From positions 1-64,000 of the forward strand of contig JAAYMA010000048.1 of the NCBI GenBank assembly GCA_012521615.1: a stretch of 64,000 bases of DNA. The letters are read 5' to 3'. The stretch's first letter is position 1; each line of letters begins with the position of its first letter. Positions 4,516-37,662 of the stretch are shown here, in pieces. This stretch comes from Clostridiaceae bacterium (GTDB lineage Bacteria > Bacillota > Clostridia > DSM-8532). The position numbers were made by a program, and so were the translations under genes. The notes beneath the pieces are model-generated. The model made no database searches. It worked only from the letters and a program-made list of their open reading frames with translations, and was not told the DNA's origin.

Positions 4516-6288
4516 ATGATGAGAAAAACTAAAATAATCTGCACATTAGGTCCTGCTGTTGAAGCTGAAGAAGTGATGAAGGAACTTGCTTTGAAAGGCA
4601 TGGACGTAGCAAGGCTCAATTTTTCACATGGTTCACATGATTACCACTTAAAACTCATAAAAACCTTGAAAAAGGTCAGAAAAGATATAAAGAAACCCAT
4701 TGCACTTATGCTGGATACTAAAGGTCCGGAGATCAGGCTGGGTTGTTTTGAAAACGGAGAGATTGAATTAAAAGCCAATGACAAATTTATTTTGACAACG
4801 AATAAGTGTATTGGCAATAAAAAGAGAGCTTTTATCTCTTATGCAAATCTGCCGAAGGTTGTTAAAACTGATGATATAATACTTCTGGATGATGGATTGG
4901 TAGCTCTGAAAGTTGTTGAAACAGATGAGATCCAGATAGTGTGCAGGGTGATGAATAGCGGTATTATCAAGGACAAAAAAAGTGTTAATATACCCGGTGT
5001 TCGCTTAAATATGCCCTATTTAAGCGATGAAGACGTAAAAGATATTCTGTTTGCCATAGAACACGATTTTGACTACATTGCAGCATCATTCGTACGAAGA
5101 GCAGACGATATCAATGATTTAAGAAATATCCTTGAAAAGCATGGCGGAAGCGATATTCAGATAATAGCTAAAATAGAAAATGGAGAAGGCGTTGAGAATA
5201 TTGACGAGATATTGTCGGTCAGCGACGGCATTATGGTTGCCCGCGGTGATATGGGTGTAGAGATAGATTATAATGAGCTTCCAAGAATTCAGAAAATGCT
5301 TATAAAAAAAGCCATGCTCCATGGAAAGAAGTCTATTACTGCTACTCAAATGCTTGATTCAATGATATCAAAACCCAGGCCGACACGGGCTGAAATAAGT
5401 GACGTGGCAAACGCCATCTATGACGGAACAAGCGCTATTATGCTGTCCGGGGAGACTTCAATAGGTAAATATCCTATAGAAAGTGTTTCCACTATGGCAA
5501 GAATAGCTGAGAGTACTGAGACGGCCATAAATTACAAGAAGCGTTTCAGGCAGATGCAGCTTGAAGAATCAACCACCAGCGTAACAAACGCAATCAGCCA
5601 TGCTACTTGTACAACGGCTCATGACCTTAATGCTGCAGCAATTATTACTGTTACCAAAACTGGAAGCACTGCACGCATGATTTCAAAATACCGTCCTGCT
5701 TGTCCGATAATAGGGGGATCTCCCGTTGAAAAAGTCTGCCGGCAGCTTGCTATGTCCTGGGGAGTAACACCTGTGTTGATTGAAGAAAAACAAAATACAG
5801 ACCAATTATTTGAACACGTTGTTGACAAGGCCGTTGAGACCGGGATTGTAAAAAGCGGTGATCTTGTGGTTCTAACAGGCGGTTTTCCCATTGGAATTCC
5901 AGGCATGACCAATATTATGAAGGTTGATATAATCGGCAATATTCTAATCCGTGGTACAGGTGTGAACAAGAAAATGGTTACCGGTACTCTTTGTGTTTGT
6001 AAAAGCGAAGAAGAAGCACTAAAGAATTTTAACAGCGGTGAGATACTGGTAATTCCTGAAACATCCAACAATATTATGAGTGTTTTAAAAAGAGCGAAGG
6101 GAATAATCACAGAAAAGGGCGATCTTTCATCCCATGCGGCAATTGTAGGGTTAAGCTTGGACATACCGGTCATATGTGGTGCAAAAAAGGCTACTGATTT
6201 GCTAAAGGACGGTACCACCGTTACCGTTGATTCATCAACCGGTATGGTATATGCTGGAAGGAGCCATAACTTAAAGTCGTCAAAATAA
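4516..6288 (+). CDS. pyk: Pyruvate kinase with C-terminal PEP-utilizer (PEPut) domain
   Basis: RKTKIICTLGPA, LNFSHGSHDYH, KIENGEGVENIDEIL, MVARGDMGVEI; C-terminal ILVIPETSNNIMSVLKRAKGIITEKGDLSSHAAIVGLSLDIPVICG. Confidence 0.96.
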   Translation: MMRKTKIICTLGPAVEAEEVMKELALKGMDVARLNFSHGSHDYHLKLIKTLKKVRKDIKKPIALMLDTKGPEIRLGCFENGEIELKANDKFILTTNKCIGNKKRAFISYANLPKVVKTDDIILLDDGLVALKVVETDEIQIVCRVMNSGIIKDKKSVNIPGVRLNMPYLSDEDVKDILFAIEHDFDYIAASFVRRADDINDLRNILEKHGGSDIQIIAKIENGEGVENIDEILSVSDGIMVARGDMGVEIDYNELPRIQKMLIKKAMLHGKKSITATQMLDSMISKPRPTRAEISDVANAIYDGTSAIMLSGETSIGKYPIESVSTMARIAESTETAINYKKRFRQMQLEESTTSVTNAISHATCTTAHDLNAAAIITVTKTGSTARMISKYRPACPIIGGSPVEKVCRQLAMSWGVTPVLIEEKQNTDQLFEHVVDKAVETGIVKSGDLVVLTGGFPIGIPGMTNIMKVDIIGNILIRGTGVNKKMVTGTLCVCKSEEEALKNFNSGEILVIPETSNNIMSVLKRAKGIITEKGDLSSHAAIVGLSLDIPVICGAKKATDLLKDGTTVTVDSSTGMVYAGRSHNLKSSK

Positions 6289-17867: not shown

Positions 17868-18629
17868 ATGCCAGTAAAAAGAATAATTCCTTGTCTTGAT
17901 ATTAAAAATGGCAGGGTGGTCAAAGGAGTACAATTTGAAAACCTGACAGATGCCGGTGATCCTGTGGCATGTGCTGTTGCATATAACACTGCGGGTGCCG
18001 ATGAACTTGTATTGCTCGATATAAGCGCGACAAAAGAAGCAAGAAGTATCATGCTTGAAATGGTATCGCAGGTGGCAGGACAAATTTCCATCCCTGTCAC
18101 AGTAGGTGGCGGGATCAGGACACTTGAGGATTTCCGGAAAAGTTTCTTGGCAGGGGCAGATAAAGTGTCGGTCAATTCTGCGGCTTTTAAAAGACCCGGG
18201 CTTATATCTGAAGCTGCCTCTAATTTTGGATCTGACCGTATAGTTGTGGCAATTGATGCTAAAAGGCGTACAGATGGAAAGGGATGGGACGTATATTTAA
18301 GCGGCGGAACTGTAAATACTGGTATGGATGCAGTAACATGGGCAAAAAAAGCCGAAGAATTAGGTGCAGGTGAAATCCTTCTTACCAGTATGGATTGTGA
18401 TGGCACTAAATCAGGATATGATATTGAACTTACCCGTGCAGTTTCAGACGCGGTCAATATACCTGTAATTGCGTCAGGAGGAGCAGGTAAACCTGAACAT
18501 TTTAAGAGTGCCATACTGGAAGGTGGGGCAGATGCTGTCCTGGCTGCTTCACTTTTTCATTTCGGGGAAATAAAAATAATAGATTTAAAGAAATATTTAA
18601 GGTCCGAAGGTATAGAAGTAGCATTTTAA
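17868..18629 (+). CDS. hisF: Imidazole glycerol phosphate synthase cyclase subunit
   Basis: [80 protein letters not shown]. Confidence 0.97.
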
Positions 18630-18907
18630 GCGGTCTTTCAAAGAAAATGCGGCAAATGATAAGCAGTGATTATGAAATATGAGCCATGTATAATATGGAT
18701 ATTATGAGATTATGCTATGCAACAGAAATTAAGATACCGATTACCATTAACTTGAAAAGGGATAATGTACAAGTGCGATGATTGACAAAAAAATAACAAT
18801 GTGATACAGTTATTATAGACGAACAGGTTCTGTAATGTAAAACAAAATATGTTTTACAGCATTGATTTAGCAAATACTAATAAATATTAACATAAGGAAG
18901 GGTAAAC

Positions 18908-19570
18908 ATGAGTGAAGGAAAGAAAATTTCTGTTGCTGTCATCAGAAGGCTTCCAAGATATTTTCGTTATCTTTCGGATCTCCTTAAACTCGATATAAAA
19001 CGGCTTTCTTCAAGAGAATTAAGTCAGCGGATGGGTATTACTGCTTCTCAAATCCGTCAGGATCTTAATTGTTTTGGAGGATTCGGTCAACAAGGTTATG
19101 GATACAATGTGGAGAATTTATTTGAAGAGGTAGGAAAAATATTAGGCACAGACCAAGGCTTTAAATGCATCATTATAGGTGCCGGTAACATGGGTAATGC
19201 CTTAGCGAATTACGAGAACTTCAAAAGACGTGGCTTCGAAATGATCGGGATTTTTGATGTCGATCCCAAAAAAGTCGGAACTTATATAAATAACATTAAG
19301 GTACGACATATGGACGAACTGGATGATTTTGTAAAGGAAAACCATGTTGATATTGCTATACTTACTGTACCGAACAAATATATTATTAATACTGCAAAGC
19401 GTGTGACTGCACTGGGCATAAAAGGAATATGGAATTTCTCGCCCACCGATTTAATGCTGGGCGACGATGTGGTTGTAGAAAATGTCCATCTGTCAGACAG
19501 TTTAATGGTATTAGGGTATAATTTGAAAGAGAAGAGAAAACAAATGGAAGAAAAAAAGGGAGCTGATTAA
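18908..19570 (+). CDS. rex: Redox-sensing transcriptional repressor Rex
   Basis: VIRRLPRYFRYLSDLLK, SRELSQRMGITASQIRQDLNCFGGFGQQGYGYNV, IIIGAGNMGNALANY. Confidence 0.97.
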   Translation: MSEGKKISVAVIRRLPRYFRYLSDLLKLDIKRLSSRELSQRMGITASQIRQDLNCFGGFGQQGYGYNVENLFEEVGKILGTDQGFKCIIIGAGNMGNALANYENFKRRGFEMIGIFDVDPKKVGTYINNIKVRHMDELDDFVKENHVDIAILTVPNKYIINTAKRVTALGIKGIWNFSPTDLMLGDDVVVENVHLSDSLMVLGYNLKEKRKQMEEKKGAD

Positions 19571-31952: not shown

Positions 31953-32134
31953 ATTCAAACCAGTATCGGATATATTTGTCATACTTTATTGCCTGCATAT
32001 ATGGCCATAAGGTTCTCCGGTGTTTGTCTTTTATATTCTCTGAAAACTTTACCCAGAAAAATAACAGGCAATGTTATATCATCGGTTTTATGTGCGTATA
32101 ATTTTATGAGAAGTTGTCTTTTCAGGGTGGTATT

Positions 32135-33241
32135 ATGCAGTCACTCAGCAGTTTCACCAGAAAATATGCCATTATGGAAGAACTCGACAGCGGGTTTAGT
32201 TCAGGCAGCACTCCCGAAGCTTTTGTCCGCCTCGATTCATGGGAAGGAAATATACAAGCCTCTGTACATGTTAAGGGACTAAAGCAGGGTCCGTTCCAAT
32301 ACAGACTTTATCTGATATTCGATAAAGAAGGTACATTAATTCCCCTTATTGCCGGAACTATGAATGTGTCGTACAGCGGGATGCAAAGCGGACTGGAAAT
32401 AGACGCAAGTATTTTGAAGGAAAATGGTGTAAGACCTGAATCAGTCAGGTATGCTGCAATTGTTGCTGAAGATCGGGACAGGAAGTGGATACCCCTGTTT
32501 TCGAGTTTTGAGAAAAGTTTTAAATGGGATGAAAGTATACGTCAGGTTCTGTTAAAAAAAACTTATACCCCTCCAGTTGATAAAGAGATTAAGCAGCCTG
32601 CCGGCACAGAGGATACCGAGAAAAAAACAGATAATACTGATACAGAAATTAAAGAGAAGATCGCTTCTGTACAAACTGAGGCTGTAATTGACAGTTCTTC
32701 TGAAGAACATATTAAAGCTGAGGAGCAGAAGGAAACGGCAGCTCTGCCGGAAGAGAATGTAAATAATAAAGCTGTTTCTGCATCTAATGTAAAGGAAAAA
32801 ATCTTTGAGAAGCCTAAGGCATTTCCTGCTGAAGATTCTTTTTACAAATGCGATATCAATAAGCTGGAAGGCCTTTTACAAAACAGTTTTGAAAGTTATA
32901 TACCCTTTAAACGTTCCCATAGGGGATACTCGTGGTACAGGGTTTCTGATCTTTCCAAGCTGAGCAATATCATGTATCTGACAGGGGTAAATGTGCCTGT
33001 ATTTGCCAATCCCAAGATTTTGGTGGGACTGTTCAAATACAAGCATATACTGGCAGGATTATATCGTGGTGAAAATGGAAGAAATTATTATGTTATTGGT
33101 GTGCCGGCAAAAAATGAGCGGGATAACCGGCCTTTTGAGACGGCCTGCCGGTGGGTGCCTCTTAAAGACAGTGATATAAGGGATATGGGAGGATACTGGA
33201 TGGTTTATGTCAGTTTAAAAACAGGGGAGATAGTGGTATAA
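32135..33241 (+). CDS. Hypothetical protein with two globular domains joined by an acidic low-complexity linker
   Basis: N-terminal SSFTRKYAIMEELDSGFSSGSTPEAFVRLDSWEGNIQASVHVKGL; Glu/Lys/Thr-rich middle; C-terminal SHRGYSWYRVSDLSKLSNIMYLTGVNVPVFANPKILVGLFKYKHILAGLY. Confidence 0.6.
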   Translation: MQSLSSFTRKYAIMEELDSGFSSGSTPEAFVRLDSWEGNIQASVHVKGLKQGPFQYRLYLIFDKEGTLIPLIAGTMNVSYSGMQSGLEIDASILKENGVRPESVRYAAIVAEDRDRKWIPLFSSFEKSFKWDESIRQVLLKKTYTPPVDKEIKQPAGTEDTEKKTDNTDTEIKEKIASVQTEAVIDSSSEEHIKAEEQKETAALPEENVNNKAVSASNVKEKIFEKPKAFPAEDSFYKCDINKLEGLLQNSFESYIPFKRSHRGYSWYRVSDLSKLSNIMYLTGVNVPVFANPKILVGLFKYKHILAGLYRGENGRNYYVIGVPAKNERDNRPFETACRWVPLKDSDIRDMGGYWMVYVSLKTGEIVV

Positions 33242-33243
33242 AA

Positions 33244-34689
33244 CTATTTTATACCATGTATCTCCCGATATTTGCCCGGACTTATACCTTCGTTTTGCTT
33301 AAATATGTTATAGAAAGTCTGTGGAGTGTTAAACCCGGTTAAGTAAGCTATTTCATTTACGGTTAAATCGCTGCGTTTAAGAAGCTTTTTGGCATGTTCG
33401 ATTCTGACTTCACCTATATATTCATTTACAGTTTTTCCGGTTGAGTTTTTGAAGATTCTTGCCAGATACACTTTGTGCATATCAAAAATATTGGCAATGG
33501 TTTCGAGACTCAGATCACTGCTGCAATAATTTTTATCTATATAGTTCTGTATTTTTTTTACTTTGGGATGGGATATTTTGTTATCTGTTTCCCATATTGC
33601 TTCAAATAAGTTGTCAAATCGCTCCAGATACCATTCACACATTTCATTTACTGTTTCGAATTCATTGGTGACATCCACAGAAATTAAATTTGAACCGAAA
33701 ACAGAACTGAATGGAATTTTCTTTTTCGCACAAAAAGATGTGAGCATCCCAAGTAAAACATTATTTATATGCTGGAGATAGTTATATTGCATCATTCCTT
33801 GCAAATCTTTTTTGTAGAGACCGGAAATCTCTTTTTTCAGCGTTTTCAGATTGCCAGTCTCTATCGCCGAGTTTATTTTTTCCAGGCGGACATTTAGGAT
33901 TTCAATCTGGGCAGCCTGTGCCTGATTTTTCACGGATTCATAATACAGCGTTCTGCCTTTGCCGAGAAAAACTCGACATTCCAGAGCATGTCGCGCCTGA
34001 TTGACAATCTCGTATAAATTAAAGGCATCTGCACTGTTATTGCTCACCCCAACAGTAACACGACTGTCTGTATAACGTTTAAGTAATGTACGGATACTTT
34101 GTATCAGCCTGAATTGGTGATTGGCCATATTGAGCCGGCTGTAATCACGGGGGATAAGTGCCAGTATCAGAAGAACATTACTGTCGGCCATATAATATTC
34201 CCCCCCACCAAGGTTGAGCAAAAGCTTTTTTAGATCCTCGCTGATTTTATTGATAAAATTGAGAAGAAATTTTTGGGGGGTCTCCGACCTTACGGCCAGA
34301 CAGAAATATTCATTATTGTGTTTCAGATATGATTGAAGCTGGGCTGCAGCCTCATTACAGGTAAAACCCTTCTCCAGGACTCTGGAAAGAATTCCTTTTT
34401 GCACCGAGGTTTTGGGGGCTGCAGTCAGATCCGCCATAACATTGCTTTCTGGAAAAGCATTCAGCAGAGTATTATAAAGAGTCTCTGCAGTTAAGGCATC
34501 CTTAATAAGGTAATCATATACACCGAGACGTAATGCTTCCTTTGCATAGGAAAAGCTTTCATGGCAGCTTAGAATTATTATTTTTTTATGCTCATCTATC
34601 ATGCGAATCCGGCGTATTAATTCAAGCCCATCCATTACCGGCATTTGGATATCAGTGATTACAAGGTCAGGATTATGCTCGTTCTGAAA
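33244..34689 (-). pseudogene. 5'-truncated response regulator (REC-AraC HTH)
   Basis: In-frame minus-strand reading upstream of the ORF-track Met continues as FQNEHNPDLVITDIQ-MPVMDGLELI, then immediately hits TAA; the first half of REC, including the start, is absent. C-terminal HTH intact. Confidence 0.8.
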
Positions 34690-35036
34690 TTAAGACATGG
34701 CTTGTGACCGCTCCTAATGATGAAGGTGCGCAGGGTGCTACCCGCGCTTTAGAACAGGCAGGTAAGGATAAAGATGCCATAGTCATTGGCGTTGGTGGCT
34801 ATCTTGCCAAGGACGAATTTAAGAAAGAGTATTCCTGTTTTAAGGCAACTGCCTATATTGATCCTGTATTGGATGGAACTATAGCAGCAAATGCCGCCAT
34901 GGACTGGATCGAATTTGGAAAAGTTCCTTATGAGGAATACAAAAAAGAAGGACAGGAATTTGGAGTATATCCTTTCAGTGCAACAATGATAGACAGAAAC
35001 AATTACAGAGAAGTAATGGGAGAAGCGGCTGATTAA
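34683..35036 (+). pseudogene. 3' fragment of a sugar ABC transporter periplasmic-binding protein
   Basis: SEIKTWLVTAPNDEGAQGATRALEQAGKDKDAIVIGVGGYLAKDEF...DPVLDGTIAANAAMDWIEFGKVPYEEYKKEGQEF; only the C-terminal third is present. Confidence 0.75.
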
Positions 35037-35054
35037 GATAAATACCAGTATAAC

Positions 35055-35091
35055 AAAGGCGGGTCAGCAACATGGACCTGCCTTTTATTTT
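35055..35091 (+). terminator. Rho-independent terminator
   Basis: aaaggcgggtc-agcaacatg-gacctgcctttt-atttt. Confidence 0.75.
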
Positions 35092-35130
35092 AGTAAAAAA
35101 TATCTCTACTGCTAATAAAAGGAGGTTTTT

Positions 35131-36201
35131 ATGACAAATCGCGAAAATGTTTTAAGAGCACTAAGAAGGGAGAATCCCGAAAGAGTTCCATTTGAATTTG
35201 TGCTTTGTCCCTCTAAAATAGAAGAATTCAAAAAGCGGACAGGAGAGAGCGACTATCAGGAATATTATAATTTTCCGATCAGGTATGTGGAACTCAATCC
35301 TACAACGAAGAAGACAGATTTCACTGTTTTTTATGAAGAATTGCCGCAGGATGCTCAGCTGCTTTCTTGGAACCCTGAATGGGGAGTAATGACTGTAAAA
35401 GGTACGGTGGCTCATTTTGAAAGAATGTTTCATCCTATGGAAAAATTCACAACTGTTGAAGAAATAAAAAACTATCCATTCCCGGATTTTAATGAAGAGT
35501 ACCGTTGGACAGGATTTAAGGAAAAAGTGGACTCCCTGAAAGAAAATGATCTTATTGCAGTGGCTTTTATGCAAATGACAATATTTGAAGTAGCCTGGTA
35601 TCTGCGCGGTATGGAGAACCTGTTGATTGATATGGTATGCAATCAGGAAATGGCAGAGGTCTTGCTGGATGAAATTACAGAAATACGTATGGGCATGGCC
35701 GAAAAATACGCCAGATACGGGATTGATATACTTATGCTGGGGGACGACGTTTCATCGCAGCAGGATATGATAATGGATCCCGGGCTGTGGAGGAGATTTC
35801 TGAAACCCAGACTTGCGAAGGTTATTGCCTCAGCAAAAGCAGCCAATCCGGATATACTTATTTTTTATCACGGGGATGGGAATCTTCAGAAAATAATTCC
35901 CGATTTAATAGAAATAGGTGTGGAGATACTAAATCCAGTTCAGCCCGAATGTATGGACCCAATATTAATTAAAAAACTATATGGAGATAAATTAACCCTG
36001 TGGGGTACCCTGGGAACCCAGACAACCCTGCCGTTTGGCACTCCTGAGGAAGTGAAACAAAAATGTAAAGAACTTATAGAAACAGTCGGGAAAGGTGGAG
36101 GCTTGCTGTTGGCTCCCACACACACAATAGAACCCGAGGTTCCCTGGGAAAACATACAGGCTTTTATAGATGCAGCAAAAGAGTATGGGGCGAAGAAATA
36201 A
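35131..36201 (+). CDS. Uroporphyrinogen decarboxylase (URO-D)/MtaA-like family protein
   Basis: NRENVLRALRRENPERVPFEFV; YGIDILMLGDDVSSQQDMIMDPGLWRRFLKPRLAKVIASAK; FYHGDGNLQKIIPDLIEIGVEILNPVQPECMD. Confidence 0.85.
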   Translation: MTNRENVLRALRRENPERVPFEFVLCPSKIEEFKKRTGESDYQEYYNFPIRYVELNPTTKKTDFTVFYEELPQDAQLLSWNPEWGVMTVKGTVAHFERMFHPMEKFTTVEEIKNYPFPDFNEEYRWTGFKEKVDSLKENDLIAVAFMQMTIFEVAWYLRGMENLLIDMVCNQEMAEVLLDEITEIRMGMAEKYARYGIDILMLGDDVSSQQDMIMDPGLWRRFLKPRLAKVIASAKAANPDILIFYHGDGNLQKIIPDLIEIGVEILNPVQPECMDPILIKKLYGDKLTLWGTLGTQTTLPFGTPEEVKQKCKELIETVGKGGGLLLAPTHTIEPEVPWENIQAFIDAAKEYGAKK

Positions 36202-36366
36202 TAATTTTAATAATTTAAATTATTCCAATTGATTATATTTGCGTTATAACTGAGCAGCCTTTATAATATGAGTGTCTGATATAAATATAAAAATTAACTT
36301 TACACCAATAAGATTTGTTGGTAGCAAGGACGTATCGGACACCGGCTTATGCAGGTAATTTAATGA

Positions 36367-37662
<1,296 letters not shown>

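Follow-up and report, generated by a model that had tools for sequence, protein, structure and literature searches.

The question raised by this locus is how two genes on opposite strands came to meet head to head with the beginnings of both missing. In the window, by which we mean the whole 64,000-nucleotide stretch of a Clostridiaceae genome that was analysed, a YesN/AraC-type response regulator on the minus strand meets an AraF/RbsB-type sugar-binding protein on the plus strand at positions 34,683 to 34,689 (Table 1). The analysis outlined below indicates that this arrangement very probably arose by a single deletion of about 5.7 to 6.1 kb within a divergent two-component/sugar-ABC locus, the size of the deletion, the number of steps and the repeat at the breakpoint being estimated from distant relatives.

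Table 1. Features at and around the join, in window coordinates
Feature	Position	Strand	Basis or remark
Left flank, conserved gene without known function (orf32114)	32114..33241	+	ksgA upstream; borders the slot in the genus
5'-truncated YesN/AraC-type response regulator	33244..34689	-	Reading frame, Pfam, reciprocal best match to the L030 regulator
Junction zone	34677..34689	none	34684-34689 (ctgaaa) assignable to either gene; 34677-34683 likewise if mismatches are allowed
5'-truncated AraF/RbsB-type sugar-binding protein, C-terminal 117 residues	34683..35036	+	Pfam, structure-database match, homologue alignment
Probable terminator, 11-bp hairpin then U-rich tract, after the binding-protein gene	35055..35085	+	Folding
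Intact URO-D/MtaA-CmuA-like gene	35131..36201	+	Reading frame, family match, synteny
Right flank, purA	36382..37662	+	

The regulator frame is open from its stop codon at 33244 up to a phenylalanine codon (34687 to 34689). This run of 481 codons without a stop reads FQNEHNPDLVITDIQMPVMDGL, with an in-frame stop codon ahead of it. In Pfam, it matches positions 39 to 101 of the 111-position Response_reg profile, together with the complete AraC HTH domain. The intact regulator of the homologous locus L030 has 42 residues ahead of the equivalent break point; by this comparison about a third of the receiver (REC) domain is missing, rather than the half that had been claimed in the initial annotation. 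Since 19 of the 21 REC domains in the same genome are complete or nearly so, and clear truncation is limited to the domain in the window and one where contig C97 ends, the truncation is not a chance feature of such domains. The binding-protein frame reads SEIKTWLVTAPNDEGAQG from 34683 and covers positions 187 to 255 of the 258-position Peripla_BP_4 profile. Full-length homologues (L030 and L018) have 230 to 236 residues ahead of the break point, and the protein has thus lost the first ~230 of its ~350 residues, including the signal peptide and the N-terminal lobe. The full-length L018 homologue matches the L-arabinose-binding protein AraF (PDB 4kzk, 1abe) over nearly its whole length (2.7e-24), whereas the window fragment, of which only the C-terminal third is present, gives a weak match over the C-terminal part (2.6e-4). 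The open frames, the partial Pfam matches and the alignment with homologues bear out the earlier proposal that both genes are 5' truncated at one point, with the regulator reading sensibly up to ~34689 and then stopping and the binding protein beginning in the middle of the protein at 34683.

Both remnants are probably nonfunctional pseudogenes. It can be envisioned that the shortened genes still work, with the regulator acting as an AraC factor independent of phosphorylation and the binding-protein fragment acting as a small protein, a reading that is compatible with an origin by deletion and that draws on the absence of stops and frameshifts from both frames and on the completeness of the AraC domain; however, we consider it quite improbable. 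The regulator remnant contains no ATG, GTG or TTG start codon before the ATG at 34644, which is its first in-frame ATG; this codon lies past the phospho-acceptor Asp, so that a start there would trim the REC domain further, and inspection of the sequence ahead of it revealed no typical ribosome-binding site. When set against what is expected of a functional YesN-type regulator, namely, a complete REC domain with its acidic pocket and phospho-acceptor Asp, the remnant falls short, as only REC positions 39 to 101 are present. A binding protein devoid of its signal peptide and N-terminal lobe likewise argues against function; in addition, neither gene retains its original promoter, and matches resembling promoters at the locus are no more frequent than expected by chance. 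The deletion that would have produced these pseudogenes was probably recent, because neither frame has yet acquired a stop. Annotators should be aware that both open reading frames at the join are stubs.

The intact arrangement is found in other species. A scan of genome contigs with the binding-protein fragment yielded 20 loci, with relatives that were 44 to 84% identical. Two of these loci, L030 from a Bacillota MAG and L032 from a 131-kb contig of a Lachnospiraceae MAG, agree with the prediction in both gene order and orientation: the regulator and kinase genes lie on the minus strand, and the plus strand holds those for the ATPase, permease, binding protein and URO-D-type product; in L027 the kinase is divergent from the ATPase as far as the contig end. 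Treponema loci and the chromosome of an Acididesulfobacillus isolate (L028) have the same transporter but no divergent two-component system beside it. The frames of the L030 ATPase and the L032 regulator look interrupted; interrupted frames can arise in draft metagenome contigs. The domains found in the remnants and in L030 and L032 (REC and AraC HTH; His_kinase, HATPase_c and HAMP; ABC_tran; BPD_transp_2; Peripla_BP_4) are those of a YesM/YesN two-component system combined with an AraFGH/RbsABC-type sugar ABC operon, of which the window, unlike such a system, keeps only the rear of the regulator, the rear third of the binding protein and the URO-D-type gene.

When the L030 regulator was searched against the window genome, the window regulator was the top match at 329 bits (the next scored 141), and in the opposite direction the L030 regulator was the top match of the window regulator among all of the loci fetched (318 against 149 bits), at an identity of only 37 to 39%. 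For the binding proteins, the remnant and its L030 counterpart share 71% identity. Since the reciprocal best partner of the regulator and this binding-protein match both lie in L030, the two remnants point to one ancestral locus. The alternative that an inversion or translocation united the halves of two unrelated loci gains something from the abundance of this regulator family in the window genome, but it is highly improbable: the L030 regulator sits beside the binding-protein orthologue, oriented as a simple deletion would predict, and a balanced event would have left the missing halves in the genome, where they were nowhere found. The equivalent break points lie 6,079 bp apart in L030 and 5,689 bp apart in L032, which is the basis of the size given above for the missing stretch. 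These data support the initial annotation in placing a deletion inside a divergent two-component/sugar-ABC locus, as judged from L030, L032 and, in part, L027. The initial annotation had suggested comparison with close relatives to find the intact locus; none turned up in the 32 family genomes and 391 class genomes searched, and the comparison draws on the distant L030 and L032.

Deletion in an ancestral locus of this kind would have extended from the first third of the regulator receiver domain to the C-terminal third of the binding protein, taking with it the kinase, the ATPase, the permease and all of their promoters, apparently in one step. The histidine kinase, permease and ATPase had been named earlier as the genes to look for elsewhere in the genome. 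The window assembly (2.23 Mb in 133 contigs, 99.94% complete and 0.03% contaminated) contains none of the three at the identity expected of orthologues, which among the loci is about 58 to 85% for the ATPase and permease (51 to 58% for the more distant L034): the best matches were 41% for the ATPase, 38% over half its length for the permease and 30% for the kinase. The N-terminal part of the binding protein was not found in the assembly beyond a weak match of 29%. As these matches are below orthologue identities, the missing middle is not located elsewhere in the assembly.

This absence also bears on the explanation that the join is an assembly or binning error, in which parts of an intact locus, or of two strains, were put together and the middle dropped. 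In favour of such an error, the genome is a 133-contig draft, and another truncated regulator lies ~50 bases from the end of contig C97, the kind of place where artefacts occur; we nevertheless regard it as unlikely, and as less likely than a deletion. Assemblers use k-mers or overlaps far longer than the ~6 exact bases shared at the join, no other contig of this nearly complete and almost uncontaminated assembly carries the missing middle, a similar scar is found well inside contig C21, and the slot in which the locus lies is naturally variable in the genus.

In relatives from the genus, ksgA and the left-flank gene are conserved, and purA follows up to about 6 kb farther on where the contig shows it. 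The slot between them (33242 to 36381 in the window) varies in content: genes for galactose, deoxyribose-phosphate aldolase-like (deoC-like), AraC and methionine-type (metY-like) functions, all named by reading the sequences rather than by family search, or nothing at all. In one relative (G010) the slot is essentially empty, with only 283 bp between the left-flank gene and purA. Given this variation and the 283-bp remainder, the interval is an accessory slot. Among the genomes searched, neither the 31 others in the family nor the 390 others in the class yielded a relative of the binding protein, a distribution suggestive of horizontal acquisition of the locus followed by partial loss.

The initial annotation held that a shared tctgaaa would fit either gene, and this applies at most to ctgaaa; the first t is most likely part of the regulator side, because all 17 aligned binding-protein homologues have proline at the codon corresponding to 34683 to 34685, where codon-by-codon alignment gives serine in the window. 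Upstream of 34683, these homologues mostly read ATITA(N/H) and the window differs, while on the regulator side agreement with homologues extends up to the phenylalanine, at a position that is mostly hydrophobic in other regulators. The exact shared stretch would thus be at most about 6 bases, provided that the lost proline codon was CCT. Similarity to the left of 34684 is weak, with 3.8% of background positions scoring equally well, and for this reason we do not claim an extended imperfect homology. Long repeats were not found at the junction, and phage family models matched only generic regulator domains; an origin from a mobile element or repeat was consequently rejected.

A join at a short repeat (microhomology) of no more than 6 exact bases is plausible, and the overlap of ~6 bases is consistent with illegitimate recombination. 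Mechanistically, very short direct repeats would most likely have been the sites of replication slippage or of illegitimate recombination without RecA. Illegitimate recombination is regarded as a major origin of the variable segments of bacterial genomes (PMC2884548), and among 193 indels longer than 4 nt in Streptococcus agalactiae, 70% are flanked by repeats with a median length of 8 nt, mostly under the RecA threshold (PMC3637634). The short-repeat, RecA-independent deletions of S. agalactiae ST260-261 resemble the event proposed here in the loss of several kilobases, the few bases shared by the ends and the pseudogene stubs left behind (PMC3637634); unlike in that case, no undeleted strain of this species or genus was found from which the repeat could be read directly. 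The gene loss is of an ordinary bacterial kind, and the specific instance is new: it provides a clean, apparently recent example of a nutrient-uptake module that was lost whole at one join.

A second scar of this type was observed in the same genome. On contig C21 (about 18486 to 19372; L074 4487 to 5373), a sensor-like N-terminal fragment of 129 aa, which weakly matches a sensor-type protein of the window genome, is joined within the gene to an rbs-type permease of which only the C-terminal half is present (profile positions 136 to 268 of 269). At the end of C97 (L073 7079 to 7354), a regulator encoded after an intact kinase is interrupted near REC position 68, beyond which VTIDLDTTTGKYDLYI is read in another frame; because the break lies at the contig end, within about 50 bases of it, this case carries less weight than the C21 scar. 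The C97 fragment was rejected as the missing front of the window regulator, since the two REC domains overlap and share only 84% identity over 44 bp, as expected of another gene. A regulator fragment on C41 is cut by the contig end and was not counted as a further scar. It is possible, albeit doubtful at present, that the species is serially losing sensor-linked rbs/ara-type sugar transporter loci by short-repeat deletions, at the window locus, on C21 and perhaps on C97. If so, the species would be at an early point in a continuing narrowing of its sugar diet, and the URO-D-type enzyme would be an orphan of that process.

The stretch of 84 nt that contains the hairpin beyond the binding-protein remnant folds with a centroid energy of -17.1 kcal/mol (z -3.4); a terminator pattern scan with a loop limit of 8 did not catch it. 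The URO-D-type gene that follows is preceded by a ribosome-binding site, aaaggagg, and is closest to the MtaA and CmuA models, at scores far under the thresholds of these models (82 bits against 244 and 81 bits against 235, respectively). It would be the orphaned partner of the lost transporter. A URO-D gene also follows directly after the binding protein in L017 (67% identity to that of the window) and L024 (59%). URO-D/MtaA-like genes adjoin the same arabinose/ribose-type ABC transporter in ~14 of the 17 closely related loci, from Clostridia and Treponema (L016 to L018, L020 to L022, L024 to L030 and L032). A literature search on URO-D genes next to sugar transporters found nothing relevant, and the pairing stands as a recurrent, unexplained association across Clostridia and Treponema. 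In L030, a URO-D C-terminal remnant of 64 residues (6048 to 6239), 78% identical to the product of the window gene, sits between the kinase and the ATPase, and for this reason the L030 locus also seems to be partly decayed.
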